A stretch of 64,000 bases of DNA from Firmicutes bacterium HGW-Firmicutes-2 (GTDB lineage: Bacteria > Bacillota > Clostridia > Lachnospirales > Vallitaleaceae), in assembly GCA_002841495.1 (NCBI GenBank), contig PGZV01000007.1, positions 78,729 to 142,728 of the forward strand, in the 5' to 3' direction. Position numbers and translations under genes: made by a program. The notes beneath the pieces were generated by a model. It worked only from the letters and a program-made list of their open reading frames with translations, was not told the origin of the DNA and ran no database searches. Positions 3,533 to 51,246 of this stretch are shown here, piece by piece. Position 1 is the stretch's first letter. Each line of letters starts with the position of its first letter.

Positions 3533-3753
3533 GCTGTGACAATAAAAGCAAAGAAGTTAGAGGTTGCCGTTCATAACAACGGGTAATTCTAATGGAGCGA
3601 ATGTCATGTTCAAGAAACTGACGACAAGATCACTGTACGAATAAGATGCCATCAATTAAGTTTGATGAAGGACGTGTGAATGAATGACACGCCAGGCAAG
3701 ATGTACAGTCACCACTTGTCGTACTCAAGTACGAAAAGGAGGCGACTTTTTTT
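3533..3753 (+). other. Long 5' leader of the S10 operon (candidate ribosomal-protein leader)
   Basis: About 220 nt of untranslated RNA between the promoter and rpsJ, with no plausible reading frame. It has a near-perfect hairpin, TCGTACT/AGTACGA (3719-3734), directly before the ribosome site AAAAGGAGG, and a GACGTGT/ACACGCC pairing at about 3671-3694. A structured leader here fits autogenous control by a product of the operon, as known for S10 leaders in other bacteria. The binding protein cannot be named from sequence alone. Confidence 0.5.
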
Positions 3754-27587: not shown

Positions 27588-28478
27588 ATGAAAATACGTA
27601 AGGTAATTATTCCGGCTGCCGGGCTTGGAACAAGATTTTTACCGGCTACCAAAGCACAACCAAAAGAAATGCTCCCTATAGTAGACAAACCAACCATACA
27701 ATATATTATTGAAGAAGCTGTGGCTGCAGGCATTGAAGATATTATTATTATTACAGGTCGTAACAAACAATCGATTGAAGATCATTTTGATAAAAACATT
27801 GAATTGGAAATGAGCTTGCAGGAAAAAGGTGAGATGGAACTGCTGAAGATTGTAGAAAAATCCACCAACCTTGCTAATATTCATTTTGTGCGCCAGAAGG
27901 AACCGAAAGGATTGGGACACGCTGTCTTGGTCGCTAAGAATTTTATCGGTGATGAGCCTTTTGCAGTTATGCTTGGTGATGACGTGGTTGTATCCAAAGA
28001 GCCTTGTATTAAGCAGTTGATGAATGCATATGACATTTACGGCAGGAGCATATTAGGTGTTCAGACAGTAGCACCAAGTGAAGTTTCCAAATATGGTATT
28101 GCAGATGTTACGATGGTGGAGGGCCAGATAGCAAAGGTTAAAGGCCTAGTAGAAAAACCGAGCATCGATGTGACACCAAGCAATCTGGCTATTTTGGGAC
28201 GTTACATTATCACCCCAAGAATATTCCATTACCTGGAAACCCAAACCCCTGGTGCAGGCGGAGAAATCCAGTTAACAGATGCCCTAATGAAGTTATCCAA
28301 GGAAGAAGATATGTATACCTATGATTTTAAGGGTAAGAGATATGATGTTGGGAATAAGCTTGGTTTTATATCAGCAACATTAGAGTTTGCCTTAAGAAGA
28401 GATGATTTGAAGTTAGAAGTTTCTTCCTATTTAAGTAATCTTATGGAGGATTTGGAAAAGAATCTCGAATACGAATAA
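27588..28478 (+). CDS. galU: UTP-glucose-1-phosphate uridylyltransferase
   Basis: Makes UDP-glucose for cell-wall polymers, glycolipids and galactose use. 296 aa, normal. It shows the nucleotide-binding GLGTRFLPATKAQPKEMLPI, KPTIQYIIEEA, FAVMLGDDVV, and the product-site GAGGEIQLTDALM. Single gene with its own terminator. Confidence 0.97.
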   Translation: MKIRKVIIPAAGLGTRFLPATKAQPKEMLPIVDKPTIQYIIEEAVAAGIEDIIIITGRNKQSIEDHFDKNIELEMSLQEKGEMELLKIVEKSTNLANIHFVRQKEPKGLGHAVLVAKNFIGDEPFAVMLGDDVVVSKEPCIKQLMNAYDIYGRSILGVQTVAPSEVSKYGIADVTMVEGQIAKVKGLVEKPSIDVTPSNLAILGRYIITPRIFHYLETQTPGAGGEIQLTDALMKLSKEEDMYTYDFKGKRYDVGNKLGFISATLEFALRRDDLKLEVSSYLSNLMEDLEKNLEYE

Positions 28479-28537
28479 TAATGTTGGTGATTATTTCAGA
28501 CATAAGAAGATTTTTAATAGCATAGTGAACATACAGG

Positions 28538-28567
28538 AAAGCAGATGGTCATAAATCTGCTTTTTTT
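28538..28567 (+). terminator. Intrinsic terminator after galU
   Basis: AGCAGAT/ATCTGCT stem, then seven T. Confidence 0.9.
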
Positions 28568-28662
28568 GTTCTTCTTTGCAAGCAAAGCAAGGCTTAGACC
28601 CTTTCTTCTTCACGAAGAAATACCTATATAGTTTCAGGTTCTATTTTAGTACATGGTAAAAC

Positions 28663-28691
28663 TTGAGAAATACGAAATAAAAAGGTATACT
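28663..28691 (+). promoter_or_regulatory. Putative promoter of acnA
   Basis: TTGAGA, 17 nt spacer, TATACT, about 70 nt before the acnA start. The segment between the galU terminator and this promoter shows no gene or clear structure. Confidence 0.65.
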
Positions 28692-28760
28692 ATAGGAAAC
28701 GGAAATTATAGCTTAAACCAAAGCTTAGTTAGAATTATTAAAATATATGGAGGAAAACTT

Positions 28761-31466
28761 ATGTCAAAAGAGAAAATATTATCCTGTAAGAAGATTCTTA
28801 CAGTGGATGGTAAAGATTATAACTATTATGATTTGAAAACATTTGAGACATTGGGGTATGGGGATGTAACACATCTACCTTATTCCATGAAAGTTTTATT
28901 AGAAGGCGCTATTAGACAGTTTGATGAGAAGACCATCACCCTAGATCATATTAAACAAATTGCTGCATGGACGTCAGATGATGAGAAGGTCAAAGAAATA
29001 CCTTTTATCCCGGCAAGAATCATATTACAGGACTTTACAGGCGTACCTGCTGTCGTTGACTTAGCAGCCATGCGTTCTACAGTAAGTCGAGCTGGCTTTG
29101 ATCCAAAGAAAATCAACCCTCTAATACCGGTGGATCTGGTTATTGACCATTCCTTAATGGTAGATGCTTATGGTACCAGTGAAGCCCTTGAGATTAACAA
29201 CAATAATGAATTTCTTCGTAATGACGAACGGTATAGATTTCTTAGATGGGCACAAACGGCATTTGACAATTTCAGAGCTGTGCCACCGGCAACCGGTATT
29301 ATTCATCAGGTCAATCTGGAATATTTGGCAACAGTGGCAGCTACGAGAGAGATAAACAATGAAACTTGGGTTTTTCCTGATTCTTTAGTTGGTACAGATT
29401 CCCACACAACCATGATAAACGGCCTTGGAGTAGTGGGATGGGGTGTGGGTGGTATAGAGGCAGAAGCCGGTATGCTTGGACAACCCTTGTACTTTGTTAT
29501 TCCAGAAGTCATCGGATTCAGATTAACAGGCGCTCTATTAGAAGGCGCAAATGCCACTGACTTAGCACTCACCGTCACACAGCGTCTGCGTGAAGAAAAA
29601 GTAGTGGGTAAATTTGTTGAGTTTTTTGGTCCTGGATTAGATGCCATGAGTTTGGCAGATCGAGCTACTGTAGCCAATATGTCTCCTGAATATGGAGCGA
29701 CAATGGGCTTTTTCCCTGTTGACAAAGAGACTTTAGACTATTTAAAAGCAACAGGAAGAAGCGAATCAGAGATTAATCTGGTTGAAGCTTATTATAAAGC
29801 ACAAGGTATTTTTAGAGATGAAAACAGTTTAGAACCACAATACAGTAAAGTTGTGGAGCTGGATATGTCAACAGTGGTCCCTAGTTTAGCAGGACCTAAA
29901 CGCCCTCAGGACCGCGTTGAGTTAACACGTATGAAAGAAGCTTTTAATGAAGCGATTAGAAAACCTTTTGCAGAAGGCGGTTTTAATCTTTCAGAAGAAG
30001 AAATTGCTACAGCGGTAGAGATTGAAGTAGATGGAGAGAGAGATACCATTAAAACAGGATCTGTTGTTATTGCAGCGATTACGAGTTGTACGAATACATC
30101 TAACCCAAGTGTTATGCTAGGTGCAGGACTTGTAGCCAAAAAAGCAGTTGAAATGGGCTTGAAGAAACCTGTATTTGTTAAGAGCAGTCTGACGCCTGGA
30201 TCGCTAGTTGTAACAGAATACCTTAAAGAAGCTGGTTTACTGCCTTATCTAGAAACACTTGGTTTTAATGTAGCGGGTTATGGCTGTGCAACGTGTATCG
30301 GCAACAGTGGTCCCCTCAAAAAACCTATTAGTGATGCCATTACAGATAACGACATAACAGTGGCTTCTGTTCTCAGTGGTAATCGTAATTTTGAAGGCCG
30401 TATTCATCCCCAAGTTAAAACCAATTACCTTGCATCACCTATGCTGGTTGTGGCATATGCCCTTGCTGGCAATGTGAACATCGATTTGATTTCTGAGCCG
30501 ATTGGTCTGGGTCATGAAGGTCAGCCAGTTTATTTGAAAGATATATGGCCGACCTCACTTGAAATTAAAGAAGCGGTGGCTATGGCGGTTAAGCCGGAGA
30601 TGTTCAGACAAAAATACTCAGATGTATTCTCAGGAAATTTGAGATTTAACAATATACCGGTACCTGAAGGGGATCTCTATGAATGGGATAAAAAATCAAC
30701 ATATATTCAGGAACCACCATTTTTTATGAATTTGCAAAAAGAAATCTTCGACATTGAAGATATTAAAGGTGCAAAAGTTTTGGCACTTCTTGGTGATTCA
30801 GTCACAACCGATCATATATCACCGGCTGGTAGTATTGGGAAGAACAGTCCTGCTGGTGAATATTTAAAAGGCTGTGGCGTAGAACCCGTTGATTTTAATA
30901 GTTTTGGTTCTAGGCGTGGTAATCATGAGGTCATGATGCGTGGGACCTTTGGTAATATCCGAATTCGCAATCAAATTGCTCCTGGCACTGAGGGCAGTTT
31001 TACAACTTATTTGCCAACAGGCGAAGTCATGTCCATCTATGATGCATCCATGAAGTATCAAGAAGAAGAAACGAATCTGATTGTTATTGCCGGTAAAGAA
31101 TACGGTACGGGAAGTTCCAGAGATTGGGCAGCAAAAGGTACAGCTCTGCTGGGTATTAAAGCGGTTATAGCAGAAAGTTATGAGCGGATCCATCGATCTA
31201 ATTTGGTCGGTATGGGCATACTCCCACTGCAGTTTATCGAGGGTCAAAATGCCCAAACATTTAAGTTAAAAGGTACTGAAACTTTTGAAATCAAAGGTCT
31301 TAATAATGATATCCAACCGGGTGCCCTAATCGATGTAACAGCCACATCAGAGGAAGGACAAATCACCACTTTTAAAGTCAAGGTAAGAATGGATTCGGTT
31401 GTGGATCAAGAGTACTATCGTAATGGTGGTATCCTTCATACAGTCTTAAGGAGAATGATTCATTAA
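28761..31466 (+). CDS. acnA: Aconitate hydratase, AcnA/IRP1 type
   Basis: Interconverts citrate and isocitrate via cis-aconitate with a [4Fe-4S] cluster; some members also bind RNA. The start is set at ATG 28761 ([20 protein letters not shown]), 6 nt after ATGGAGG; a longer in-frame start at 28653 would place coding sequence across the promoter. 901 aa, normal. It shows [20 protein letters not shown], cluster ligand Cys in [10 protein letters not shown] and [12 protein letters not shown], and the C-terminal swivel domain with [33 protein letters not shown] and [14 protein letters not shown]. No other TCA-cycle gene is near. Confidence 0.96.
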
Positions 31467-31485
31467 TTGTTTAAGGTGTCAAATA

Positions 31486-31529
31486 AAAATAGAAAGCAGA
31501 GCGCTGACAGCTCTTGCTTTCTATTTTTT
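31486..31529 (+). terminator. Intrinsic terminator after acnA
   Basis: Long A/T-flanked stem AAAATAGAAAGCA with TGCTTTCTATTTT, inner AGC/GCT, ending in a T-run. Because of the A-run on the other side it could act in both directions. Confidence 0.88.
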
Positions 31530-31611
31530 GTTACAGCAATCTTCTATTAACCTATCTATGTCATGGTATTGTTGATATTAACTAAATATTTGGGCAAAAA
31601 GTATAAAAAGT

Positions 31612-31641
31612 TTGACAAGTAAAATTTAATAGGTGTATAAT
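31612..31641 (+). promoter_or_regulatory. Putative promoter of the purine-catabolism island
   Basis: TTGACA, 18 nt spacer, TATAAT. It is the only strong promoter seen between 31.6 and 52.2 kb on the plus strand and lies directly before the leader terminator at 31700. Confidence 0.8.
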
Positions 31642-31699
31642 AATAATAGGAATATTTAATGAGACTAAACAGACAACAAAGCAATCAAAGAGGTAATGA

Positions 31700-31740
31700 A
31701 GCCTTTTATATAAGACACGTTCTTTTATAAGGGGCTTTTT
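31700..31740 (+). terminator. Leader terminator (putative attenuator) of the purine island
   Basis: AGCCTTTTATA pairs with TATAAGGGGCT (11 bp, two G-T pairs), 15 nt loop, then TTTTT. It lies between the promoter and the first gene (start 31779). A terminator in the 5' leader implies regulated read-through. The 50 nt leader before it does not match the purine riboswitch consensus; an RNA-binding protein or an unknown small element is possible. Confidence 0.75.
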
Positions 31741-31778
31741 GTTATAGGATCTCTATTACTTAGAGTTGGAGGTAAGCT

Positions 31779-32348
31779 ATGTGTGATGGTATTGTGTTGG
31801 CAGGTGGTTTTTCAAGCAGAACTCAAACGAATAAGTTGGAACTACCAATAAAAGGAGAACCTATTTTACGCATTGTTGTCATGACATTACAACAATGTTG
31901 CGACAACATTGTTGTTGTAGGCGGCCACTATTATAAAGAAGTCGTAGAAATGTTAAAAGATATGGAGCGTGTCACAGTTGTGTATAACCCTAACTATAAT
32001 GAGGGTATGTTCAGCTCTGTTTTAACCGGTGTCGCCTGTATGACCCGAGATTTCATCTTGATTCCCGGTGACTACCCTTTTATTTTGGCATCAACTTATA
32101 AAAGTGTCATAGATTCAGAGGGTGAGATGGTAGTGCCGACTTATAATGGTAGGAAAGGTCATCCCATACTTATAAGGCAACACTTGATTCATCCATTGCT
32201 TTTGGAGTCCCCATTATCCAATCTAAAGAAGTTCAGAGACCGATATCAAGTGACCTATTTACCTGTAGAGGATAAAGGTATACTCATGGATATAGATACC
32301 ATCAAAGAGTATGAAAGTATGAGATCACAAATAGAAGGGAGTTATTGA
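31779..32348 (+). CDS. Molybdenum-hydroxylase accessory nucleotidyltransferase (YgfJ/MocA-like)
   Basis: 189 aa NTP-transferase fold. N-terminal GIVLAGGFSSRTQTNKLELP is the nucleotide-binding signature of MobA/MocA, and LIPGDYPFI carries the metal Asp. MocA proteins attach CMP to molybdopterin, producing the cytosine dinucleotide cofactor used by xanthine-dehydrogenase-type enzymes. The YgfJ branch accompanies purine/selenium-linked hydroxylase clusters in E. coli and Clostridia, matching the context. First gene behind the attenuator; TTGGAGGTAAGC precedes ATG. Next gene starts 1 nt after its stop. Confidence 0.85.
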   Translation: MCDGIVLAGGFSSRTQTNKLELPIKGEPILRIVVMTLQQCCDNIVVVGGHYYKEVVEMLKDMERVTVVYNPNYNEGMFSSVLTGVACMTRDFILIPGDYPFILASTYKSVIDSEGEMVVPTYNGRKGHPILIRQHLIHPLLLESPLSNLKKFRDRYQVTYLPVEDKGILMDIDTIKEYESMRSQIEGSY

Positions 32349-32349
32349 T

Positions 32350-33153
32350 TTGAAGATTAAAACGTATACAATGCCTACAGATCTGGAAGAAGCGTACCAA
32401 TTATTACAAGAAAAAGATGCCGGAATTATCGCAGGAGGCGCATGGCTCAAGTTGTTACCTAAAACATTGACCCAGGGTATTGATTTGTCCGGACTTAAGT
32501 TGGATACCATTAATGAAACAGAAGAAAATTATACGATAGGTAGCATGGTGACTTTAAGACAGATTGAGACACATACCAGTCTTGGAACTTACATGGATGG
32601 TGTGTTACAGGAAGCTATCTCACATATTATGGGTGTTCCAATACGCAATATTGCTACTATTGGGGGTACCGTTGCCGGCAGATTCGGTTTTTCAGATTTG
32701 TTGACACCTCTTCTTGCCCTTAAAGCCAATTTGGTTTTTTACAAGAAAGGTCAGGTTACATTAGAATCTTACTTGAAAGAAGCATTAAAAGAAAAAGACA
32801 TATTGCTGCAAATCATTATAAAAAAAGAATATGGCAAAGCCCACTATACAACGGTTAAGAAAACGGCAAATGATTTTCCTATACTGAATGTTAGTATCAC
32901 GAAAATTGGGACACATTTCAGAGTGGCAGTAGGTGCAAGACCATCTGCAGCCGTCTTAGCTACAAAGACCATGGCGTACTTAAATGAAAATAAAACTTTA
33001 TCAGATGATATCATTGAAAAGGCGGCAAAGATTGCAGTTGAAGAAATAAGCTTTGGAAGCAACGCCAGAGGATCAAAGGCCTATAGAACTCAGCTATGTA
33101 AGGTATTGGTGGAAAGAGGGATCAAGGAGGTGGCTTATGAAAACACAAATTAA
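32350..33153 (+). CDS. Molybdenum hydroxylase 1, FAD-binding subunit
   Basis: XdhB/CoxM-type subunit, 267 aa, passing electrons from the Fe-S subunit to FAD and then to an acceptor. TTG start after GAAGGGAG at the end of the previous gene. It shows the PCMH-type FAD motifs IIAGGAWLKLLPK (about residues 26-38) and RNIATIGGTVAGRFGFSDLL (about 100-119), then a CO-dehydrogenase flavoprotein C-terminal domain (SFGSNARGSKAYRTQL). It overlaps the 2Fe-2S gene by 17 nt. Shorter than most partners (about 280-290). Confidence 0.9.
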   Translation: MKIKTYTMPTDLEEAYQLLQEKDAGIIAGGAWLKLLPKTLTQGIDLSGLKLDTINETEENYTIGSMVTLRQIETHTSLGTYMDGVLQEAISHIMGVPIRNIATIGGTVAGRFGFSDLLTPLLALKANLVFYKKGQVTLESYLKEALKEKDILLQIIIKKEYGKAHYTTVKKTANDFPILNVSITKIGTHFRVAVGARPSAAVLATKTMAYLNENKTLSDDIIEKAAKIAVEEISFGSNARGSKAYRTQLCKVLVERGIKEVAYENTN

Positions 33154-33586
33154 AATCAATGGCAAAATCAGGACATTTGAGGTTGAACCGGATGAATATT
33201 TGGTGGATACACTAAGAAAGCATCATTATTATAGTGTGAAAAAGGGTTGCGACACATCCTCATGCGGTGTGTGCACAGTACTTCTTGATGGTAAGCCCAT
33301 TGCCTCTTGTAGTTATTTGTCGGTTAAAGCCAATGGTCATGCTGTGACCACTGTTGAAGCCATAGAGGAAGAAGCAACGATTTTAGCGAAACTTTTTGGA
33401 AAAGAAGGCGCCGATCAGTGCGGCTTTTGTAATCCTGGGTTGGCACTAACGGTCTATGCAATGAAAAAAGAGTTGAACAATCCTACAGATGAGGATATAC
33501 GTACGTATCTGGTCGGAAATTTGTGCCGCTGTTCAGGTTATGTGTCCCAGCATAGGGCCATCAAAGCGTATATGGAGGTGATATAA
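33137..33586 (+). CDS. Molybdenum hydroxylase 1, [2Fe-2S] subunit
   Basis: 149 aa. The start is set at ATG 33137, 6 nt after AAGGAGG. N-terminal plant-type [2Fe-2S] site: KKGCDTSSCGVCTVLLDG; C-terminal helical [2Fe-2S] site: CGFCNPG and NLCRCSGY. Electron carrier between molybdopterin and FAD subunits. Followed by the molybdenum subunit after 2 nt. Confidence 0.95.
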   Translation: MKTQIKINGKIRTFEVEPDEYLVDTLRKHHYYSVKKGCDTSSCGVCTVLLDGKPIASCSYLSVKANGHAVTTVEAIEEEATILAKLFGKEGADQCGFCNPGLALTVYAMKKELNNPTDEDIRTYLVGNLCRCSGYVSQHRAIKAYMEVI

Positions 33587-33588
33587 TC

Positions 33589-35901
33589 ATGAAATGTGTA
33601 AATCATAATACCGGATCTATTGACGGAAAAGGTCTCATGCTTGGGCGACCTGCCTATACCAACGACTTGGCTGATCCTAATGCTTTGACGGTTAAGGTTT
33701 TAAGAAGTCCTCATCCTCATGCAAAGATTTTAAATATTGATACACAAAAAGCGCTGTCTCTTGAAGGCGTTGAATGTGTTTTAACCTATAAGGACTTTAA
33801 AAGGATTCCGGTTACACGTGCCGGACAAGGGTATCCCGAACCATCACCCCATGATAAGTTTGTGCTGGATTCAGTTGTGCGTTATGTGGGAGATGATGTG
33901 GCTGTTGTAGCTGCAGAAACTGAGGCCATTGCAACGAGAGCTCTTGAGTTGATTCGAGTTGACTACGAGATTCTTGAACCTGTTTTGGATTTTGAGAAAG
34001 CTTATGAAAATGAAAGCATCATACATCCTGAACCTGAAATTCATGAAATGTTTCCAATAGGATTTGAACCAGAGAAAAATGTAGCAGCGGCTTACCACAT
34101 GGAAATAGGTTCAGTTGAAGCGGTTATGGATCAGTGCGACGTAACCGCGACGTCTTCTTATTATACCCAGGCTCAAGCTCACGTTATGATGGAACCTCAT
34201 ACTGCTAATGCTAGGTTGGATTTTCAAGATCGCTTGGTCATCTACTCATCCACCCAAACACCTTTCCACGCCAGAAGGATTGTTTCTCAAGCCCTTGAAA
34301 TTCCTATGAGTAAAATAAGGGTCATCAAACCCAGAATCGGAGGGGGTTTTGGTGGTAAACAATGTTTACATGGTGAATTTTTTGTAGCAGCGGTGACCAT
34401 GAAAACTAAAAAACCCTGCAAGCTTGTATATACCAGAAAAGAGGTATTCGAGTCCAGTTACTCAAGACATCCGATGCGTATTGATGTCACCTTAGGTTCA
34501 ACAAAAGAGGGAGAATTAAAAGCCCTTGATGTTCATGTTTTATCGGATACAGGTGCTTATGGTGAGCATGCTCTGACTGTATTTATGGTCGCGGGTGCGA
34601 AAACATTACCACTATATAATAAAGTAGAAGCCGTTCGCTTTGGTGGTAGAGTTGTCTATACCAATCACACACCGGGTGGTGCTTTTAGAGGTTATGGTGC
34701 TATACAAGGCAACTTTGCAGTGGAGTCTGCTGTTGACCAACTTTGTGAAAAACTAGGCGTGGACCCAATTGAATTTAGGAAAACAAACATGATTGCTGAG
34801 GGCGAAACCTCACCGGTTTTTGCAAAAATGGGTGAAGGTACAGAAGGCACCGCCATGAATATGGATAGCTGCAAACTGGATTATTGTGTCGATCGAGGCA
34901 TGGAACTCATTGGTTGGAAAGACAAATATCCAAGGAAATCCATCTCCAAAACAAAAGTAAGAAGTGTTGGTATGTGTCTTGCGATGCAAGGATCCGGCAT
35001 ACCGTATATTGATATGGGCTCAGCCATCATTAAGCTAAATGATACAGGTTTTTATAACTTAATGGTAGGTGCTACAGATATAGGCCAAGGCAGTGATACC
35101 ATTTTGGCACAAATCGCGGCTGAGAGCTTAAAGACAACTGTGGATAAAGTGATCGTTTACTCATCAGATTCAGACTTAACACCCTTTGATACAGGTGCTT
35201 ATGCTTCTAGTACAACCTATGTATCCGGTAATGCAGTTAAAAAAGCTGCAGATCAGATGTTAGAAATGATTGTAGAAGAAGGGGCAAAAGCCTTAGGCGT
35301 TAGACCGGAAGACATTCACTTTGATGGTGTTATCCTAAAAGTAAATGATACCGATACATCCATGACCTTGGAATCATTATCCAATAGACTCTTTTATAAT
35401 GAAGACCAAAAACAATTGGTAGCTGCTAATTCTTATGTAGGCACAAAATCACCACCTCCATTTATGGCAGGTTTTGCTGAAGTTGAAGTGGACATTGAAA
35501 CAGGAGAATTCAAAGTATTGGATTATGTTGCCGTAGTGGATTGTGGCACCACCATCAATCCAAGCTTGGCAAAAGTTCAAGTAGAGGGTGGGATTCTTCA
35601 AGGATTAGGCATGGCCATGTTTGAAGAAGTTATTTACAATAAAAACGGCAGTCTAATTACCAATAACCTCATGAATTACAAAATACCAACCCGTAAAGAA
35701 GTCACAAACATACACGTTGAATTTGCGGACAGTTATGAAGCATCAGGACCCTATGGCGCCAAGTCTGTCGGTGAGATTGGTATTGATACACCACCTGCAG
35801 TCATTGCTAATGCCATATACAATGCTATAGGTGTTAGAATCAATAGCCTTCCTATTACTTCTGAAAAGGTTTGGGCAGCAATACATAATAAAGAAAAATA
35901 A
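33589..35901 (+). CDS. Molybdenum hydroxylase 1, molybdopterin-binding subunit (xanthine dehydrogenase type)
   Basis: 770 aa catalytic subunit of the xanthine dehydrogenase family. N-terminal alpha/beta-hammerhead domain (about 1-135), then the molybdopterin domain with IGGGFGGKQ, TPGGAFRGYGAIQGN, GATDIGQGSDTILAQ and the C-terminal GPYGAKSVGEIGI, whose Glu is the expected catalytic base. The AFRGYG motif, not the CODH AYRCSFR loop, points to purine or aldehyde hydroxylation. The precise substrate (hypoxanthine, xanthine or another N-heterocycle) cannot be told. Gene order FAD, 2Fe-2S, Mo within a coupled operon. Confidence 0.92.
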   Translation: MKCVNHNTGSIDGKGLMLGRPAYTNDLADPNALTVKVLRSPHPHAKILNIDTQKALSLEGVECVLTYKDFKRIPVTRAGQGYPEPSPHDKFVLDSVVRYVGDDVAVVAAETEAIATRALELIRVDYEILEPVLDFEKAYENESIIHPEPEIHEMFPIGFEPEKNVAAAYHMEIGSVEAVMDQCDVTATSSYYTQAQAHVMMEPHTANARLDFQDRLVIYSSTQTPFHARRIVSQALEIPMSKIRVIKPRIGGGFGGKQCLHGEFFVAAVTMKTKKPCKLVYTRKEVFESSYSRHPMRIDVTLGSTKEGELKALDVHVLSDTGAYGEHALTVFMVAGAKTLPLYNKVEAVRFGGRVVYTNHTPGGAFRGYGAIQGNFAVESAVDQLCEKLGVDPIEFRKTNMIAEGETSPVFAKMGEGTEGTAMNMDSCKLDYCVDRGMELIGWKDKYPRKSISKTKVRSVGMCLAMQGSGIPYIDMGSAIIKLNDTGFYNLMVGATDIGQGSDTILAQIAAESLKTTVDKVIVYSSDSDLTPFDTGAYASSTTYVSGNAVKKAADQMLEMIVEEGAKALGVRPEDIHFDGVILKVNDTDTSMTLESLSNRLFYNEDQKQLVAANSYVGTKSPPPFMAGFAEVEVDIETGEFKVLDYVAVVDCGTTINPSLAKVQVEGGILQGLGMAMFEEVIYNKNGSLITNNLMNYKIPTRKEVTNIHVEFADSYEASGPYGAKSVGEIGIDTPPAVIANAIYNAIGVRINSLPITSEKVWAAIHNKEK

Positions 35902-35941
35902 CATTAAATAAGAAGTTTGGCAAAAAAGGAAGGAATAAATC

Positions 35942-36769
35942 ATGGACATATATGATGAAATCATAAAAATGAAGCAGACCAATGAACCATGTATGACCGT
36001 GACGGTTGTTGAAAAAACAGGTGACGGCCCAGTGGAACTTGGCAAAAAAATGTTGGTCGGTGGTACAGGTAAGCGCGTGGGTACCGTCGGTGGTGGTGCT
36101 CTAGAGAATCGAGCCATAGAAACTTGCAAGGACTTAATTAAAGCGCGAAAAAGTCATTTGGAAAAATACCTTTTAAAAGAAGGTGAGATTATTGGTCAAA
36201 CAACCACATTGCCAATGACCTGTGGGGGTGTTGTAACACTTTTTTATGAGTATATCGGACATGGTGCCCATATTTACATTTTTGGTGCAGGCCATGTCAG
36301 TCAAGCACTCTGCCATGTTCTAAAGACCATGAACTTTTATGTGACCGTTGTTGATAACCGCCAAGAAGTCGTTGATCAATTTGTCGGTGGTGACGAAGTA
36401 CATCATCATGATTTTGTGGACTTTATTGAAACACAAGGGCTAACAAAAGACGCCTATGTGGTCGTATGTACACCATCCCATAAGTATGACTACCAGGTCA
36501 TGCACAAAATCATTGAAAAACAATTAGAATTAAAATATGTAGGTATGCTTTGCTCAAAGAACAAACTGAAGGACTATTTAAAAAGAACCTATGATAAATT
36601 TGGTGAAAACCTTGATCTATCCAACCATTATGCACCTACCGGTATTGATACCGGTGGTGGATCACCGGCAGAGATTGCTGTGTCCATAAGTGCAGAAATA
36701 TTGGCCGTATATTACAACAAAACGGGCAATAAACATATGCGAGATGCCTATATAACGAAAGAGAAATAG
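35942..36769 (+). CDS. xdhC: XdhC-family molybdenum cofactor insertion protein
   Basis: 275 aa. XdhC binds the molybdenum cofactor, promotes its sulfuration and hands it to the hydroxylase. N-terminal domain with VEKTGDGPVELGKKMLVGG and GTVGGGALENRAIE; C-terminal Rossmann domain with IYIFGAGHVSQALCHVL (about 113-129) and DNRQE; end region GIDTGGGSPAEIAVSISAEI. Follows the Mo subunit as in other xdh operons. AAAAAGGAAGG precedes ATG. Confidence 0.9.
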   Translation: MDIYDEIIKMKQTNEPCMTVTVVEKTGDGPVELGKKMLVGGTGKRVGTVGGGALENRAIETCKDLIKARKSHLEKYLLKEGEIIGQTTTLPMTCGGVVTLFYEYIGHGAHIYIFGAGHVSQALCHVLKTMNFYVTVVDNRQEVVDQFVGGDEVHHHDFVDFIETQGLTKDAYVVVCTPSHKYDYQVMHKIIEKQLELKYVGMLCSKNKLKDYLKRTYDKFGENLDLSNHYAPTGIDTGGGSPAEIAVSISAEILAVYYNKTGNKHMRDAYITKEK

Positions 36770-36787
36770 GTAGAGAAGGAGATTAAT

Positions 36788-38092
36788 ATGTATGATTTGG
36801 CAATATTAAACGGACAACTTTATATAGAGGGAAGTCTTGTAAAGCAACATCTCTATATCAATGGGGATCATATTGTTGCCATAAGTGATGAGGTGCATCA
36901 AGCGAGAGAAGTTTATGATGCTACCGATAGGTGGGTTATGCCCGGGTTGATTGACCCTCATGTTCATTTTGAGTTGGACTGTGGTAAATATACATCTTCA
37001 GATGATTTTTACACAGGATCGATAGCTGCGGCTTATGGTGGCATTACTACGGTAATCGACTTCCTTGATCCCATATCCAGCGAAAAAGAATTAGAAAAGG
37101 CCTTCAATGACCGAAATCAGCTCGCTGGTAAATCCATGATTGACTATAGGTTCCATGTAACCGTGAAAGATCCTGTGAATGAAGTCGTGCCTATAGTTAA
37201 AACAATGAAGAAATTAGGGTTAAACAGCATAAAAATTTTTACAACTTATTCAGACTCAGGCAGACGGACTTATGACGGTGAAATTGTAGAGTTATTACAA
37301 CTTTCTCATAAGGAAGAATTTATCGTGTTAGCGCATATAGAAAAAGATGACAGTATTACCATGGAACCAAGTTATACTGCAGGTGACTTACCTATAAGTA
37401 GGCCGGAGATGGCTGAAACAGAAGAAGCCTTAAAACTAGCGACCTTAGCAAAAGAAACGAATGGCCATTTATATATGGTTCATGTTAGCAGCGGCAATAC
37501 TTTAGAGGCTTTGGTAAAAGCGTTTCCTGAGATACTGGGGGAAAACCTTTATCTGGAAAGTTGTCCTCACTACTTTGAATTTAATGAAGAGCGGTTTGAA
37601 GGTAGCCAAGGACATCTTTATACCATGGCCCCACCACTGCGGAGTGAAGCCTCTAGAGAAAAACTCATTAATGGTTTTGATTATTTGCATACAATTGCTA
37701 CGGATCACTGTCCTTTTACAGCCCAAGAAAAAAAACAAAAACATCTTTTGGGAATGCCTTTGGGTATCGGCGGTGTTGAACATAGTTTTAGTTTGATGGC
37801 GACCAGATACGGCATAAAAGCCATTGATAAAATGAGTACAATGCCGGCTAAAATATTCGGTCTCTATCCTAAAAAGGGAAGTCTGGATGTGGGATCAGAT
37901 GCTGATATTGCTATCTACAACCCTAATATAACCAACAAGATTGAGGCGGATCATTCAAAAGCCGGTTATACCGTTTATAAAGATCTAGAAGTTAGTGGTC
38001 AGATAGAAACCACACTATGCAAAGGCCAATTTATTATCAAGAATAATGCCCTAGTCATAGGAAGTGTAGGCCACTTCATGGATATAAGTTAA
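36788..38092 (+). CDS. Dihydropyrimidinase/hydantoinase-like amidohydrolase
   Basis: 434 aa, cyclic amide hydrolase of the D-hydantoinase/YgeZ type. Metal ligands visible: GLIDPHVHFE (two His), a candidate carboxylated Lys in LNSIKIFTTYSD, HIEKDD and MVHVSSGNTLEAL (His), and the Asp in IATDHCPF. In purine clusters such enzymes open an imidazolidine or pyrimidine ring after hydroxylation or reduction. About 20 residues shorter than typical D-hydantoinases. GGAGATTAAT precedes ATG. A 132 bp gap with a strong hairpin follows. Confidence 0.88.
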   Translation: MYDLAILNGQLYIEGSLVKQHLYINGDHIVAISDEVHQAREVYDATDRWVMPGLIDPHVHFELDCGKYTSSDDFYTGSIAAAYGGITTVIDFLDPISSEKELEKAFNDRNQLAGKSMIDYRFHVTVKDPVNEVVPIVKTMKKLGLNSIKIFTTYSDSGRRTYDGEIVELLQLSHKEEFIVLAHIEKDDSITMEPSYTAGDLPISRPEMAETEEALKLATLAKETNGHLYMVHVSSGNTLEALVKAFPEILGENLYLESCPHYFEFNEERFEGSQGHLYTMAPPLRSEASREKLINGFDYLHTIATDHCPFTAQEKKQKHLLGMPLGIGGVEHSFSLMATRYGIKAIDKMSTMPAKIFGLYPKKGSLDVGSDADIAIYNPNITNKIEADHSKAGYTVYKDLEVSGQIETTLCKGQFIIKNNALVIGSVGHFMDIS

Positions 38093-38119
38093 AGTGTCAA
38101 AACTATATAGTTGAACTTA

Positions 38120-38170
38120 CCCTACAACATATAGTTACGAACGTATTAACGTAATCTATATGTTGTGGGG
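38120..38170 (+). other. Near-perfect 20 bp hairpin between the hydantoinase and ssnA genes
   Basis: CCCTACAACATATAG then TTACG pair with CGTAA then CTATATGTTGTGGGG, with one bulged T, one mismatch-free inner stem and a 10 nt loop. No T-run follows, so it is not a typical terminator. It could be an RNA-processing or stability site, or an operator; 54 nt downstream lies the ssnA-like start. Confidence 0.85.
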
Positions 38171-38224
38171 TTAGAGAAACTTTAGTATTGCCGCTTTAAC
38201 TGTTAAAGTTAGGAGGGTGACCCC

Positions 38225-39514
38225 ATGATTGCACTGACCCATGTCAATTATTATGATTTTAAGACCTATGCCAAAGATCAATATATTATTTTTGATGATA
38301 AAATAATTGAGGTTGGGCCTATGGCGAACTTTGTGAATGAGGACTATGAAATAATAGAAGGCAAAGATCAATTGGTTATGCCGGGTTTGATTAATGGTCA
38401 CCATCATATTTACTCAACTTTTGCAAGAGGCTTAGCATTGCCTTTTGACCCTGAGAATTTTCAAGAAATATTGGATCAATTATGGTGGAAGCTGGATGGT
38501 AGCCAAGATCTGGACAATGTGTATTATTCCGGAATTGTAAGTGGTGTTGAAGGCGTCAAAAACGGTATCACGACAATCATTGACCATCATGCCAGTGGCC
38601 TAGATATTAAAGGCTCGTTGGAAACCTTAAAAAAGGCCATATGTGATGAAGTCGGTCAAAGGGGTATATTCTGCTTTGAAAGTAGCGACCGTTTTGATAT
38701 AGACGCCTGCATTGAAGAGAATCTAAGCTTTGCTAAGAAATATCAGACGACTAAAACAGCAGGCTTATTTGGTCTTCATGCGGCTATGTCCTTATCAGAG
38801 GAAAGTCTTACTAAGATTTCAAAAGTCATTGATGATATACCAATCCATATACATGTAGCTGAAAGTCATATGGACGAAGACTTAAGTTTGGAGCGATATG
38901 GTGAACGGATTATCCATAGACTGGATCGACACCAACTCTTAAACAAAAACAGTCTTTTGGTTCACTGTCTTTACATTGATGATGGGGAAGCAGATATTAT
39001 TAGTAGAAGCAAATGTACAGTAGCCCTGAATGCTACATCAAATATGAACAATGGTGTAGGCTTACCGGACCATAAACTTTTTAAAAGAGCAGGCATACCG
39101 GTAATTATCGGTAATGACGGAATAGGAAGTGGCATAACGCCGGAATGGCTTAACTTAAATTTTGCCATGCATCATAGGGATTTGACACCGGTTGAATTTG
39201 GTTTGGGTCAAGTCCTGGAAATGGTCAATCAAACATATGTATATGCATCAAGCATTCTAGGTTGCAAGCTTGGACGGATTGGGCCAGGTTATGAAGCTGA
39301 TTTGTTGATGATACCGTATATTCCGCCTACACCTATGAATAAGGATAATGCCTTTGGTCATGTATGTTTTGGATTGGCAAATAACTTTAACCCAAGCCAT
39401 GTTTGGTGTGGTGGTAAGAAGGTCTTAGATCATTATAAGATCAAGGACAATCTTATGGACACTTATAGAGAAGCATCAAAGTCAGCTAGGCAATTGTGGG
39501 ATAGAATACAATAA
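38225..39514 (+). CDS. ssnA: SsnA-family amidohydrolase
   Basis: 429 aa. Metal-dependent aminohydrolase of the ATZ/TRZ-guanine deaminase superfamily: VMPGLINGHHHIYSTFARGL with the HxH pair, HIHVAESHMDED (His), the later VGNDG-like IIGNDGIGSG (Asp). SsnA is a recurrent member of purine/selenium-linked clusters; its exact substrate is not settled to my knowledge. GTTAGGAGGGTGACCCC precedes ATG. Confidence 0.86.
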   Translation: MIALTHVNYYDFKTYAKDQYIIFDDKIIEVGPMANFVNEDYEIIEGKDQLVMPGLINGHHHIYSTFARGLALPFDPENFQEILDQLWWKLDGSQDLDNVYYSGIVSGVEGVKNGITTIIDHHASGLDIKGSLETLKKAICDEVGQRGIFCFESSDRFDIDACIEENLSFAKKYQTTKTAGLFGLHAAMSLSEESLTKISKVIDDIPIHIHVAESHMDEDLSLERYGERIIHRLDRHQLLNKNSLLVHCLYIDDGEADIISRSKCTVALNATSNMNNGVGLPDHKLFKRAGIPVIIGNDGIGSGITPEWLNLNFAMHHRDLTPVEFGLGQVLEMVNQTYVYASSILGCKLGRIGPGYEADLLMIPYIPPTPMNKDNAFGHVCFGLANNFNPSHVWCGGKKVLDHYKIKDNLMDTYREASKSARQLWDRIQ

Positions 39515-39565
39515 AGATGATAAAGGCATAAGTTAAGAGGTATAAAATAAAAAGGGGGTAATACC

Positions 39566-40645
39566 ATGAAATTAGATATAAGTTTTGATGGGTTAACATT
39601 AAAAAACCCGTTAATGCCGGCATCGGGTCCTTTGGTAGGAGATCTTGAAAAGTTGAACTTCATTCGAGATGAAGGTGTAGGTGCTGTTGTTACCAAAACC
39701 ATTTCATCAAAAGCAGCCGTCGTACCCAGACCTTGTATTTATGGTGATCGGTATTTTGTTATGAATTCTGAGCTTTGGTCAGAACATAGCAAAGAAATGT
39801 GGCTTGAAGAAATATTACCGAATTATGATAAAGCAGGTGCACCTTTAATTATTTCGGTAGGGTACACCAAAGAAGATATGGCACTTTTGATACCTTTACT
39901 AGACCCTTACGCAGATGCATTTGAGATATCTACCCATTATGTAGGCAAGGATTTATCGGTGATCAGGGATACAGTACGCACCATCAGAGCCCATACAACA
40001 AAACCTATCTATATGAAAGTCAGCCCTCACATGGATGATCCGGTTGCCTTTGCTAGAGCAGTTAGAGAAGCCGGTGCCAGCGGTATCGCCGCTATTAATT
40101 CCCTTGGCCCGACGATGAAAATTGATTTGAAATCTAGAGAAATTATTTATGGTGGTGAAAGTGGTTTTGTTTGGACGTCCGGTCCCGCCATTAAGAACCT
40201 GGCTTTGGCAACAGTTTATAAGATTAAGCAAGCTATGCCGGATTTTACCGTTATTGGTGTTGGCGGCGTTTCTAGTGCCGATGATGTTATAGAATTCCTA
40301 TTAGCAGGTGCCAGTGGTGTTCAGATGTTGTCAGCAGCGTTATTAAAAGGCAAGGATCTATACAGCAAAATTATAGAAGATCTACCAAAAGCACTTGAAA
40401 AATATGGTTTTTCTTCTATTGAAGAAGTCACCAGGGTTGGACTTACCAAGACAATTAGCTATGAACCGGTTGTACCAAGTGTGGATACGCAACTTTGTAC
40501 CCAGTGTATGCTATGTGTGAAGATTTGTCCGTATTTTGCAATCCGTTTTGAGACGCAGATTCTATTTGATCAGGAAAAATGTTTCGGTTGTCATTTATGT
40601 GTCAGTAAATGCCCGGTAAAAGCCATATATCTAGAAGACAAGTAA
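39566..40645 (+). CDS. PreA-like dihydropyrimidine/dihydroorotate dehydrogenase-type Fe-S flavoprotein
   Basis: 359 aa. TIM-barrel FMN domain of the dihydroorotate dehydrogenase superfamily (about 1-295): start SFDGLTLKNPLMPASGPLVG, YMKVSPHMDD, GVGGVSSADDVIEFLLAGAS. C-terminal bacterial ferredoxin module with two [4Fe-4S] motifs, CTQCMLCVKICP (311-322) and CFGCHLCVSKCP (339-350). Layout equals PreA, the catalytic half of NADH-dependent dihydropyrimidine dehydrogenase, but no PreT partner is adjacent. It sits where yge/ygf clusters have the YgfK reductase, so a reductive step on a purine-derived ring is a reasonable inference. Confidence 0.85.
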   Translation: MKLDISFDGLTLKNPLMPASGPLVGDLEKLNFIRDEGVGAVVTKTISSKAAVVPRPCIYGDRYFVMNSELWSEHSKEMWLEEILPNYDKAGAPLIISVGYTKEDMALLIPLLDPYADAFEISTHYVGKDLSVIRDTVRTIRAHTTKPIYMKVSPHMDDPVAFARAVREAGASGIAAINSLGPTMKIDLKSREIIYGGESGFVWTSGPAIKNLALATVYKIKQAMPDFTVIGVGGVSSADDVIEFLLAGASGVQMLSAALLKGKDLYSKIIEDLPKALEKYGFSSIEEVTRVGLTKTISYEPVVPSVDTQLCTQCMLCVKICPYFAIRFETQILFDQEKCFGCHLCVSKCPVKAIYLEDK

Positions 40646-40664
40646 AAATATAACTGGAGGTGGT

Positions 40665-42758
40665 ATGGTGTTAGACATTAGCAAGTCCATTAATAAGGTG
40701 GACAATTTTGAGAAAATAACAGGTACAGCCAAATATATTGACGATATCAAGCCGGAAGGGTGCCTCTATGCAAAAACGTTAAGGGCAACCATTTCAAGGG
40801 GTCGCATTGTTTCAAGAAAATATCCGGACATGCCCGAGGGATATGCTATTGTTGATTATCAAGACATTAGCGGTCAAAATATTGTAAAAATCATTTTTGA
40901 TGATATGCCGGTTTTTGTTGAAGAGACCGTCAATTATTTTGGTGAACCTATTTTATTGGTGGTCGGTGAAGATAAAGCCACTATTATGAGTTTGATGCAT
41001 CAGATTAGCATTCAATATGAAACAGAAGAACCGGTTTATGATTATGTAGACAGTAAAATTCATAAAAGTTATATCAAAGGCCAAGGTGAAGCTGTTTTTG
41101 ATAAGGCTTATAAGATTATTGAACATACCTATGAGACAGGTTATCAAGAGCATGTTTACATAGAGCCACAAGGTGTCATTGCTTTATATGAACCGGATAA
41201 GATTTCTCTTATTGGTTCTATTCAATGTCCTTATTATGTTAAGAACGCGCTTATGAGTGTATTGGATTGTAATGAAGATGAAGTTAGGGTGGAACAAGCG
41301 ACAACAGGTGGTGCTTTTGGCGGGAAAGAAGAGTTTCCGTCTTTAATAGCCTGTCAGGTAGTCGTAGCTGCTAAGAAGATGAAAAAGCCGATTAAGCTCA
41401 TCTATGGTAGAGAAGAAGATATGGCTTATACAACAAAACGTCACCCTGCAAAGATTAAGATTGAAGCTGCCATTTCAAAAGAACATGAGATTCTAGGGCT
41501 TCGAACACATGTTGGTTTAGATGGTGGCGCTTATATAGGCCTATCAGGTGTTGTTTTATTAAGAGCTATGATTGCGGCAACCGGCGCCTATACCATTGAT
41601 AACCTATGTGTGTCAGGCGATGTTTATATAACCAATACAGTACCAACAGGTGCTTTTAGAGGCTTTGGCGCACCACAGATGATTTTTGCCGTAGAAATGA
41701 TGATCCATCATATTGCAAAAGAACTAAAAGAAGATGCCTACAAATTAAGAATGAAATATTTGGCAAAGACAGGTGATGTAACATCTACCAGTGGTCATTT
41801 TATTGAACCCATTATTATGGAAAATATGATTCAAAAGGCGATGCTGATGTCTGACTATGAAGCCAAAATAAAAAAATACAGTCATGACAATATGAATAAA
41901 GGTATTGGTATGAGTTGGTTTCTTCACGGATGTGGGTTTACAGGTAGTGGTGAGCAAGTTCATATCAAAGCAATCGTACGACTGAAAAAAGATGAATCCA
42001 ATAGGGTGCATATATTGGTTGCCAGCACAGATATGGGCCAAGGTATTAAAACAACCTTTAGAAAACTGGTCGCTCACAAACTGAATATACCCATGGAGCA
42101 AGTCATCTTTGAGAATCCGGATACGGATAAAGTGCCTGACTCCGGCCCCACAGTGGCATCCCGTACCATGATGATTGTGGGTGGTTTGTTGGCAAAAGCG
42201 GCAGATCAGCTTAAGCAACAATGGAAAGATCAAGAAGAAGTGATGGTTGAAGAACGATATAAACAGCCGGAACACATAAGGTGGGATGATGAGACTTTAC
42301 AAGGTGATGCGTACCCGGCGTATTCATGGGGCATAAATGTTGTTGAGGTCGAAGTGGACCCGGTTACCTTTGAAGTGACCTTACTTGGTGTTTGGTCGGT
42401 TTATGATGTGGGTAAAGCCATTGATGAACAGGTTATTCTTGGACAGGCAGATGGCGGTTTACTACAAGGTATTAGCTACGGCATGCTTGAAGTGATGAAA
42501 AACAAAGACGGACGGATACAACAAAAAACCGTAACGGATTATATCATACCTACAGCCAAAGATACGGTATTTATGGAAACGGAACTGATGGACAACCCTT
42601 ATGCGCTTGGTCCTTATGGTGCAAAAGGTGCTGGTGAGCTCACTTTAATTGGTGGTGCACCTGCTGTTGCTCTGGCGATAGAAAATGCAATTGGTAAGCA
42701 TGTAACTCAGATACCTGTGGTACCGGAATACATTATGGAGTTGATGAAAAATGGTTGA
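40665..42758 (+). CDS. Molybdenum hydroxylase 2, molybdopterin-binding subunit
   Basis: 697 aa, about 70 shorter than the first Mo subunit and clearly a distinct paralogue. Hammerhead domain with KITGTAKYIDDIKPEGCLYA, then TTGGAFGGKEEFPSL, VPTGAFRGFGAPQMIF, ASTDMGQGIKTTFRKL, DSGPTVASRT and C-terminal GPYGAKGAGELTLIGG with the catalytic Glu. The AFRGFGAPQ and GGKEE motifs are closer to classic xanthine dehydrogenases than those of set 1. The start is GTG-adjacent ATG/GTG in GGAGGTGGTATGGTG; 40665 is used (MVLDISKS). It overlaps the 2Fe-2S gene by 8 nt. Confidence 0.9.
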   Translation: MVLDISKSINKVDNFEKITGTAKYIDDIKPEGCLYAKTLRATISRGRIVSRKYPDMPEGYAIVDYQDISGQNIVKIIFDDMPVFVEETVNYFGEPILLVVGEDKATIMSLMHQISIQYETEEPVYDYVDSKIHKSYIKGQGEAVFDKAYKIIEHTYETGYQEHVYIEPQGVIALYEPDKISLIGSIQCPYYVKNALMSVLDCNEDEVRVEQATTGGAFGGKEEFPSLIACQVVVAAKKMKKPIKLIYGREEDMAYTTKRHPAKIKIEAAISKEHEILGLRTHVGLDGGAYIGLSGVVLLRAMIAATGAYTIDNLCVSGDVYITNTVPTGAFRGFGAPQMIFAVEMMIHHIAKELKEDAYKLRMKYLAKTGDVTSTSGHFIEPIIMENMIQKAMLMSDYEAKIKKYSHDNMNKGIGMSWFLHGCGFTGSGEQVHIKAIVRLKKDESNRVHILVASTDMGQGIKTTFRKLVAHKLNIPMEQVIFENPDTDKVPDSGPTVASRTMMIVGGLLAKAADQLKQQWKDQEEVMVEERYKQPEHIRWDDETLQGDAYPAYSWGINVVEVEVDPVTFEVTLLGVWSVYDVGKAIDEQVILGQADGGLLQGISYGMLEVMKNKDGRIQQKTVTDYIIPTAKDTVFMETELMDNPYALGPYGAKGAGELTLIGGAPAVALAIENAIGKHVTQIPVVPEYIMELMKNG

Positions 42759-43224
42759 AGTAAGATTTGAATTAAACGGAGAAACAGTTATCACAAAAGA
42801 TGATCCGACAAAAAGACTATTAGATGTTATAAGGACAAGCTTTGGCCTGACCGGTCCGAAAGAAGGCTGTGGCGAAGGAGAATGTGGTGGATGTGCTGTA
42901 CTCATAGATCATAAAATAATGAATGCCTGTATAACGCCTCTTGGCAATGTTCATGGAAAATCCGTGGTGACCATCGAGGCATTTGCCAAAACTCAAAGAG
43001 GACAGACCATTAGAAAAGCATTTGAAACCCATGGTGCTGTTCAATGCGGCATATGTACACCAGGTATGGTCATAGCTACAGAATCCTTACTCCATGCCAA
43101 TCCTCATCCAACTGAGGCTGAGATCAGAGAAGGTTTGTCCGGTAATTTATGCCGCTGTACAGGCTATAATATGATTGTCAAAGCCATTTTATCCTTAGTT
43201 GAAAAGGAGGGATCTTTGTGGTAA
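42751..43224 (+). CDS. Molybdenum hydroxylase 2, [2Fe-2S] subunit
   Basis: 157 aa. First cluster GCGEGECGGCAVLIDH, second CGICTPG and NLCRCTGY. It starts within the end of the Mo subunit and ends inside the start of the FAD subunit, so all three are translationally coupled. Confidence 0.95.
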   Translation: MVEVRFELNGETVITKDDPTKRLLDVIRTSFGLTGPKEGCGEGECGGCAVLIDHKIMNACITPLGNVHGKSVVTIEAFAKTQRGQTIRKAFETHGAVQCGICTPGMVIATESLLHANPHPTEAEIREGLSGNLCRCTGYNMIVKAILSLVEKEGSLW

Positions 43225-44069
43225 ATACCCATTACCCAACATCTTATGAAGAAGCCCTTGAACTTTTAAATATCTACAAACCGACGATTGTTGCAGGTGG
43301 TACAGATCTTATGGTCAGGAAAAGAGCATGGAGCGATTTGCCTACAAACTTTGACCGGGACGTGTTATTTGTTGGGCAATTGGAAGAACTGAATTATATC
43401 GATCGCCAAGGTAGTAACATCCATATCGGTGCAGGCGTGACACTAGAAGATATTATGGATCATTTTCATACACCGGCTTTGTTATCAGAAGCCATCAAAA
43501 TTATGGCTTCACCGGCTATAAGACATAGTGCAACTTTAGCCGGTAATGTGGTGAATGCATCACCGGCAGGCGATACTTTACCGGTACTGTATGTTCTTGA
43601 TAGTGTGATCGTATTGGAATCTGTAGAAGGTATAAGACATGTGCCTATTAACGCCTTTATTACTGGCCCGGGTAAGACAATCATCAATGACAATGAAATG
43701 ATTAAAGAAATCATCTTATCCGGTCATAAGTTTAATCATAAGGTCTATAGGAAGGTTGGCGGACGTAAAGCGGATGCCATCTCAAAGTTATCTGTTTGTC
43801 TAATTATGGACACTAAAAAAGGCATGATTCAGAACTTTAGAGCAGCTTTTGGCGCGGTTGGGCCTACGGTTGTAAGAGATCTAGCAATAGAGTCCAAACT
43901 TATAGGTAAATCATTGGATTGGCTGGATGAAAATATTGAAGAAATCGGCAAATGGTACGAGCCCATAATAAAGCCTATCGATGACCAAAGGTCTTCGGCA
44001 TCCTATCGAAAAGCATGCACCATTAACCTGCTCACGGATTTTATAAAGCATATAAAACATCATGCATAG
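43218..44069 (+). CDS. Molybdenum hydroxylase 2, FAD-binding subunit
   Basis: 283 aa. GTG start after AAAAGGAGGGATCTTT. FAD motifs TIVAGGTDLMVRKRA (about 18-32) and RHSATLAGNVVNASPAGDTL (about 98-117), then the C-terminal CODH-flavoprotein domain with KVYRKVGGRKADAISKLSV. Set 2 is ordered Mo, 2Fe-2S, FAD, the reverse of set 1. Confidence 0.92.
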   Translation: MVNTHYPTSYEEALELLNIYKPTIVAGGTDLMVRKRAWSDLPTNFDRDVLFVGQLEELNYIDRQGSNIHIGAGVTLEDIMDHFHTPALLSEAIKIMASPAIRHSATLAGNVVNASPAGDTLPVLYVLDSVIVLESVEGIRHVPINAFITGPGKTIINDNEMIKEIILSGHKFNHKVYRKVGGRKADAISKLSVCLIMDTKKGMIQNFRAAFGAVGPTVVRDLAIESKLIGKSLDWLDENIEEIGKWYEPIIKPIDDQRSSASYRKACTINLLTDFIKHIKHHA

Positions 44070-44101
44070 AATCTCAATGATTTATAAGCGGAGGTAGGAC
44101 A

Positions 44102-44638
44102 ATGTTAGGCGAAAAAATAAGACTAAGACGTATTGAAAAATCCATGAGCTTAAAAGAACTTGCTGAGGCATCCGGCTTAACTTCAGGATTCATTAGTCAG
44201 ATAGAGAGAGACCTTGCCGAACCCTCCATCACATCTTTAAGAAAGATTGCTGAAGCATTGGAGGTAGCCGTATTTCATTTTTTTATTGAAGAAATGCATG
44301 AGAATCCGGTGGTAAGAAAAAATGAACGACAACCTATACAATTTCCCGGTTCAAAGGTTTCTTATGAGTTACTGTCACCGGATTTAAACCGTCAAATGGA
44401 GACTTTTCTTGGAAAACTTGAACCAGGTGGTGTTACGTGTGATGAACCTATGGCCCATGCAGGTGAAGAAGTGATTTTTGTTTTAGAAGGAGAAATGCTC
44501 ATACGTATTGGTAATACAACCTATAATTTATCAGAAGGTGACACCATATACTATTACGCCAATATACCCCATCAGATTGAGAATTCGGGTAAGCATTTAT
44601 TAAGTTTTTTGTCTACAATTACCCCACCAAGATTCTAA
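44102..44638 (+). CDS. XRE-family transcription regulator with cupin domain
   Basis: 178 aa. N-terminal helix-turn-helix (about 1-62): IRLRRIEKSMSLKELAEASG, LTSGFISQIERDLAEPSITS. C-terminal cupin (about 100-170) with HAGEEVIFVLEGEM and an HQIENSG ligand region, expected to bind a small molecule. SinR/PuuR-like architecture. Its place inside the island suggests it senses a purine or pathway intermediate; the target site was not identified. GGAGGTAGGACA precedes ATG. Confidence 0.9.
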   Translation: MLGEKIRLRRIEKSMSLKELAEASGLTSGFISQIERDLAEPSITSLRKIAEALEVAVFHFFIEEMHENPVVRKNERQPIQFPGSKVSYELLSPDLNRQMETFLGKLEPGGVTCDEPMAHAGEEVIFVLEGEMLIRIGNTTYNLSEGDTIYYYANIPHQIENSGKHLLSFLSTITPPRF

Positions 44639-44676
44639 GGTCTTACTAGAGGTATTAGCAATTTAGGAGGAATGAT

Positions 44677-46383: not shown

Positions 46384-46397
46384 AAGGAGGACCTTAA

Positions 46398-50227: not shown

Positions 50228-50228
50228 T

Positions 50229-51215: not shown

Positions 51216-51246
51216 TATGGCACTAAGTAATGGAGGCGAGGCATCC

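Follow-up and report, generated by a model that had tools for sequence, protein, structure and literature searches.

A candidate ANTAR-type antitermination switch in the leader of a Petrocella purine-catabolic island

The stretch of DNA analysed here (the window, 64 kb) carries a purine-catabolic island of about 20 kb whose leader contains an intrinsic terminator and, overlapping the 5' arm of that terminator, a hairpin resembling the RNA targets of ANTAR proteins. Given the features of this leader and of its relatives, it is likely, though well short of certain, that the island is under ANTAR-dependent, probably nitrogen-responsive antitermination, and that initiation is controlled separately at a palindrome, probably by an XRE-cupin protein encoded in the island. 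In this model, positions 31699-31710 would by default pair with 31726-31737, and RNA polymerase would halt at the U-run, leaving an RNA of about 95 nt. An active ANTAR protein would bind and hold the hexaloop hairpin at 31688-31707, which would occupy the 5' arm of the terminator; with the terminator blocked, the 20-kb island would be transcribed.

The window's genome (G000) was compared with three others of Petrocella (G001, G002 and G003; n = 4 for the set) and with a sister-genus genome, G004, whose assembly is 89% complete. Together with G035, G006 and five genomes of the f63 family, these make up 12 island-bearing genomes. The island and the elements that frame its start are as follows.

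31779-52197, plus strand: co-directional purine-catabolic island, under the proposed control of the leader, recognised by family matches and by a gene order common to other genomes
31779-32348, plus strand: first island gene, mocA-like, encoding a MobA/MocA-like nucleotidyltransferase (PF12804, E 2e-29; TIGR03310)
44102-44638, plus strand: XRE-cupin transcription regulator (HTH_3 and Cupin_2)
31485-31528, plus strand: terminator of the preceding aconitase-family gene, a 14-bp perfect inverted repeat followed by a T-run
31612-31641, plus strand: promoter, TTGACA-18-TATAAT, matching the consensus at 12 of 12 positions
31699-31740, plus strand: intrinsic terminator, with its hairpin at 31699-31737 and its U-run at 31736-31740, then GUU

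Besides the nucleotidyltransferase and the XRE-cupin regulator, the island encodes molybdenum hydroxylase subunits and accessory proteins, hydantoinase-like and SsnA-like amidohydrolases, a PreA-like protein, adenine deaminase, a YgeY protein, and carbamoyltransferase and carbamate kinase proteins. It is separated from the aconitase-family gene by that gene's own terminator, and none of the plus-strand T5 hairpins within the island folded at -12 kcal/mol or better; consequently, a single transcription unit is plausible. The hydantoinase-like and SsnA-like genes are separated by 133 nt, and this gap contains an imperfect inverted repeat with 29-nt arms (38106-38184). The other Petrocella genomes have a much shorter gap here, which suggests that the repeat was inserted, perhaps as a small mobile element. 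Elsewhere in the window, the S10-Clostridia ribosomal protein leader at 3543-3627 (RF03136) is the only Rfam match.

The promoter is the sole 12/12 consensus match in 28000-36000 and likewise in 31600-51500, and transcription is predicted to start at about 31648. Between promoter and first gene lies a leader of about 130 nt, in which the terminator hairpin begins about 51 nt past the predicted start and ahead of the first ATG (31779). A preliminary description of this DNA had reported just such an arrangement, a consensus promoter followed by a hairpin and T-run before any gene; this holds, although the length that it gave for the hairpin, 11 bp, was slightly low, as there are 12 outer pairs, a U.U mismatch, 4 inner pairs and a 5-nt loop. 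The hairpin has a folding energy of -15.4 kcal/mol (z -6.1; equalled by none of 200 shuffles) and ranks fifth among the 105 plus-strand T5 runs of the window. A simple terminator scan did not list it, presumably because the U.U mismatch interrupts the contiguous stem.

The hairpin is also conserved in relatives. All of its pairs are kept in the four Petrocella genomes, with changes at five of them. Positions that never vary in these genomes make up 93% of the promoter (39 of the 42 positions across 31600-31641), 90% of the start region, 82% of the hairpin and 100% of the tail; the yardsticks are 33% for fourfold-degenerate sites within the island genes and 32% for the upstream flank. A terminator occupies the corresponding site in G004; its lower stem is closely similar, and its upper stem is different but paired. 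In G002, an additional strong hairpin lies just past the leader terminator, ahead of the first gene (L043:1330-1480).

Within the leader, the following further elements were recognised.

31688-31707, plus strand: predicted antiterminator hairpin, ANTAR P2-like, AAGAGGU[AAUGAA]GCCUUUU, 7 bp, with its hexaloop (31695-31700) carrying A1 and G4
31678-31683, plus strand: AAAGCA, a weak candidate for a remnant of the ANTAR P1 loop, stemless in the window's genome
31654-31670, no strand assigned: operator-like palindrome ATTTAATGAGACTAAAC (RTTTAR-N5-YTAAAY), spanning the transcription start region
31659-31730, plus strand: short open reading frame of 23 codons, MRLNRQQSNQRGNEAFYIRHVLL*, probably incidental, with its stop inside the 3' arm of the terminator

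Known ANTAR targets are A1/G4 hexaloops of which the second hairpin overlaps a terminator, and they lie mostly at nitrogen genes (PMC3369931). In the window, the 3' arm of the P2-like hairpin (31701-31707) sits within the 5' arm of the terminator (31699-31710), making the two mutually exclusive; as the transcript lengthens, the P2-like hairpin is predicted to fold before the terminator (-6.3 kcal/mol), to which it later loses. Its stem is identical in the four Petrocella genomes, and thus no covariation is available for it there. The loops vary: AAUGAA in the window, AAUGGG and AAUGAG elsewhere, A1 and G4 being present in three of the genomes, while the G002 loop, UUAGAG, is without A1. When the upstream sequence was shuffled and the terminator held fixed, a 7-bp hairpin with an A1/G4 loop arose by chance in 0.36% of cases.

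A survey of all strong T-run terminators in the window and in the longer retrieved loci (n = 159) indicates how restricted this arrangement is. In 11 of them, the 5' arm is overlapped by an A1/G4 hexaloop hairpin of 5 bp or more, a count that includes close relatives, which are not independent, and many loci chosen for their nearness to ANTAR genes. Three of the 11 head the purine island, in as many Petrocella genomes, and the remaining eight lie in glnA/glnN leaders; none of the other 148 has such a hairpin at 5 bp. Relaxing the threshold to 4 bp brings in two more, the G035 eut leader and one that is unexplained. Furthermore, the orthologous leader of G004 contains both ANTAR hairpins: UAAUUAA[AUAGUA]UUAAUUG, an 8-nt linker and AAGGU[AAGGAG]GCCUU, which runs into the terminator. 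The probability of such a two-hexaloop element by chance is about 1e-4. Upstream of the G004 island promoter (L044), a sequence of about 60 nt, CATGAGAACA..TTTATCCTATATAGAAAGAGGACGGTGGGATAAAA, is tandemly repeated.

These results bear on several proposals made in the preliminary description. A protein-dependent antiterminator, which it had raised as a possibility, is well supported at the sequence level by the A1/G4 hairpin that excludes the terminator, by glnA/glnN leaders beside an ANTAR gene, and by the full element of G004. The RNA motif would not be an unknown one, as had been suggested, but resembles a known class, the ANTAR hexaloop. That the leader does not match the purine aptamer is confirmed: comparison of the Petrocella leaders with Rfam, in which the purine riboswitch is one of the families, gave no match at gathering scores or at E values up to 1. 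As with the purine riboswitch, a terminator in the leader precedes genes related to purines, but the leader differs in having no such aptamer and in being unstructured before P2 (no structure is predicted for 31648-31687). Since the leader is short and unstructured, a switch operating through RNA only is unlikely. The idea that the leader might be a repeated element within its own genome was rejected; BLAST matches were at chance level, and those inspected lay mostly inside unrelated genes. When 96 relatives were searched for the start segment, allowing 2 mismatches, only noise was returned.

Such a terminator is lacking from the island leaders of the f63 family, G035 and G006, and the proposed control is consequently lineage-limited. 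ANTAR genes (PF03861) are present in 11 of the 12 island-bearing genomes, namely the four of Petrocella, G004, G035 and the five of f63; in G006, no such gene was found, and its island leader is without both the terminator and an A1/G4 hexaloop. The island leader of G035 (L083, about 200 nt past the promoter) is long and strikingly G-poor, with no hairpin terminator, and might contain a Rho-type site.

How closely does the window's leader resemble the established ANTAR systems? Like the dual-hexaloop leaders of eutP/EutV, nasF/NasR and amiE/AmiR (PMC3369931, PMC8934654), it has a promoter-proximal A1/G4 hexaloop hairpin that extends into the 5' arm of an intrinsic terminator; likewise, the genome encodes ANTAR proteins, and the genes downstream are nitrogen-related. 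Unlike them, it is without P1, it precedes a purine-degradation island, and the ANTAR gene is unlinked. No qualifying P1 hairpin with an A1/G4 hexaloop was found upstream of P2 in the window, G001 or G003; the AAAGCA region has a 4-bp stem in G002 only, whereas a full P1 is present in G004. On this evidence, the element would behave like an ANTAR antiterminator, yet it falls short of a full dual-hexaloop member because P1 is missing. In the eutP leader, P1 is needed by EutV (PMC3369931); in a structural study, the minimal binding unit was redefined as a single hexaloop, in which G4 is the key contact and A1 makes none (PMC8934654). A more specific hypothesis, that a single hexaloop without P1 suffices to place the purine island under nitrogen-responsive ANTAR antitermination, as a minimal switch used in this lineage at glnA, glnN and the purine island, is tentative and may well prove wrong.

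The layout at the glutamine synthetase genes is relevant here. In the window's genome, the leaders are as follows.

L164:1660-1925 (glnN) and L167:5300-5630 (glnA): A1/G4 hexaloops overlapping terminators, apparently with no P1

Across G000-G004, the glnA/glnN leaders resemble the window's: one A1/G4 hexaloop hairpin overlaps a terminator, and no P1 lies near glnA; the Petrocella glnA leaders likewise have one hexaloop hairpin only, directly behind the -10 element. They differ from the purine leader in their loop, AAAGGC, in their stems and in having an ANTAR gene adjacent. The window's genome has two PF03861 genes above the cut-off: one, EutV-like, adjoins a PdtaS-type histidine kinase and ethanolamine-type genes, and the other, encoding a receiver-ANTAR protein, lies between glnA and glnN (type III glutamine synthetase). 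Judging from their sequences, the glnN and glnA leaders are probable targets of this second protein, which would also be the likeliest to act on the purine leader. If so, the signal would probably be nitrogen shortage.

Alternatively, the same switch could be operated by EutV, such that the island would answer ethanolamine/cobalamin signalling rather than nitrogen status. The purine P2 loops, AAUGAA and AAUGAG, are closer to the P2 loop of the G035 eut leader than to the gln loop AAAGGC, and the window's genome has a EutV-type gene, which adjoins the PdtaS-type kinase. The eut leader in question is a full dual-hexaloop ANTAR element.

L179:9171-9250 (G035), minus strand: GAUUACAC[AACGGC]GUGUAAUC, then GAGC[AAUGAG]GCUC and a terminator

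This eut leader, however, has a P1, and the P1-less layout of the window fits the glnA leaders instead. Moreover, G004 has the fullest purine element but a glnA-linked ANTAR as the only kind found, although its assembly is 89% complete and its incompleteness leaves some room for EutV. Because of G004, nitrogen control by the glnA-linked ANTAR protein is favoured, and action by EutV is judged unlikely.

Initiation appears to be subject to a control of its own. The motif RTTTAR-N5-YTAAAY at 31654-31670 also occurs near the promoters of orthologous islands, twice in G035 and once each in G507 and G483; in all, 7 of the 12 islands have it, four of them from Petrocella. The probability of finding it by chance is 0 to 1.2%, depending on the leader. 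As a regular expression, it is unique in the 64-kb window, yet taken alone it occurs at chance frequency, and its weight comes from where it lies in orthologous islands. Since the palindrome lies upstream of the -35 element in G507 and G483, it must be a DNA site; the same position, upstream of the promoter, rules it out as an RNA P1 hairpin. Genome-wide counts were at background, and a wider regulon was rejected. The XRE-cupin protein is 63-67% identical across the syntenic islands, its helix-turn-helix being nearly constant, and we infer that it probably reads the palindrome. The conserved palindrome at the promoter and start points to control of initiation as well. Accounts in which the terminator is the one switch of the island, as the preliminary description had proposed, would need amending in this respect; conditional termination, predicted from the mutually exclusive hexaloop hairpin, is well supported at the sequence level.

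Could promoter and operator be the only regulated parts, with the terminator an unregulated brake that reduces basal transcription by a constant proportion or yields a small RNA? The palindrome is conserved and common to islands without the terminator, and the terminator is strong, with an unstructured leader upstream. However, this explanation accounts neither for the A1/G4 hexaloop over the terminator nor for the restriction of that arrangement to glnA/glnN and purine leaders, nor for the dual element of G004; its chance of being correct is slender.

Translation-coupled attenuation is very improbable. In the E. coli pyrBI type of attenuator, a short leader ORF overlaps the terminator, as in the window, and a ribosome on the 23-codon ORF, close behind RNA polymerase, would block the hairpin. 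The ORF has an AGGA 7 nt before its ATG, it stops within the 3' arm of the terminator, and it is open in 3 of the 4 Petrocella genomes. In G002, however, there are in-frame stops at codons 5 and 7 while the terminator is intact, and no similar frame is seen in G004; the leader-peptide reading is lowered because the frame is missing in both. In addition, most of the changes between genomes alter amino acids, and the ATG (31659) would be conserved because it lies inside the operator palindrome. Unlike the pyrBI type, the window also has an alternative, predicted protein-binding hairpin.

A term search of two full texts on the anaerobic purine pathway returned almost nothing about its regulation, and literature searches for ANTAR together with purine genes or glutamine synthetase brought up no paper that connects them in this way. 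If ANTAR-dependent antitermination does operate at this leader, nitrogen status would control the anaerobic breakdown of purines (uric acid), and would do so during transcription elongation. The minimal form of the switch, if true, would mean antitermination without the recruitment hairpin that EutV needs. The structure of EutV with RNA has raised the issue of whether two hairpins are required for antitermination (PMC8934654), and natural single-hexaloop leaders such as these could show whether ANTAR proteins need both.
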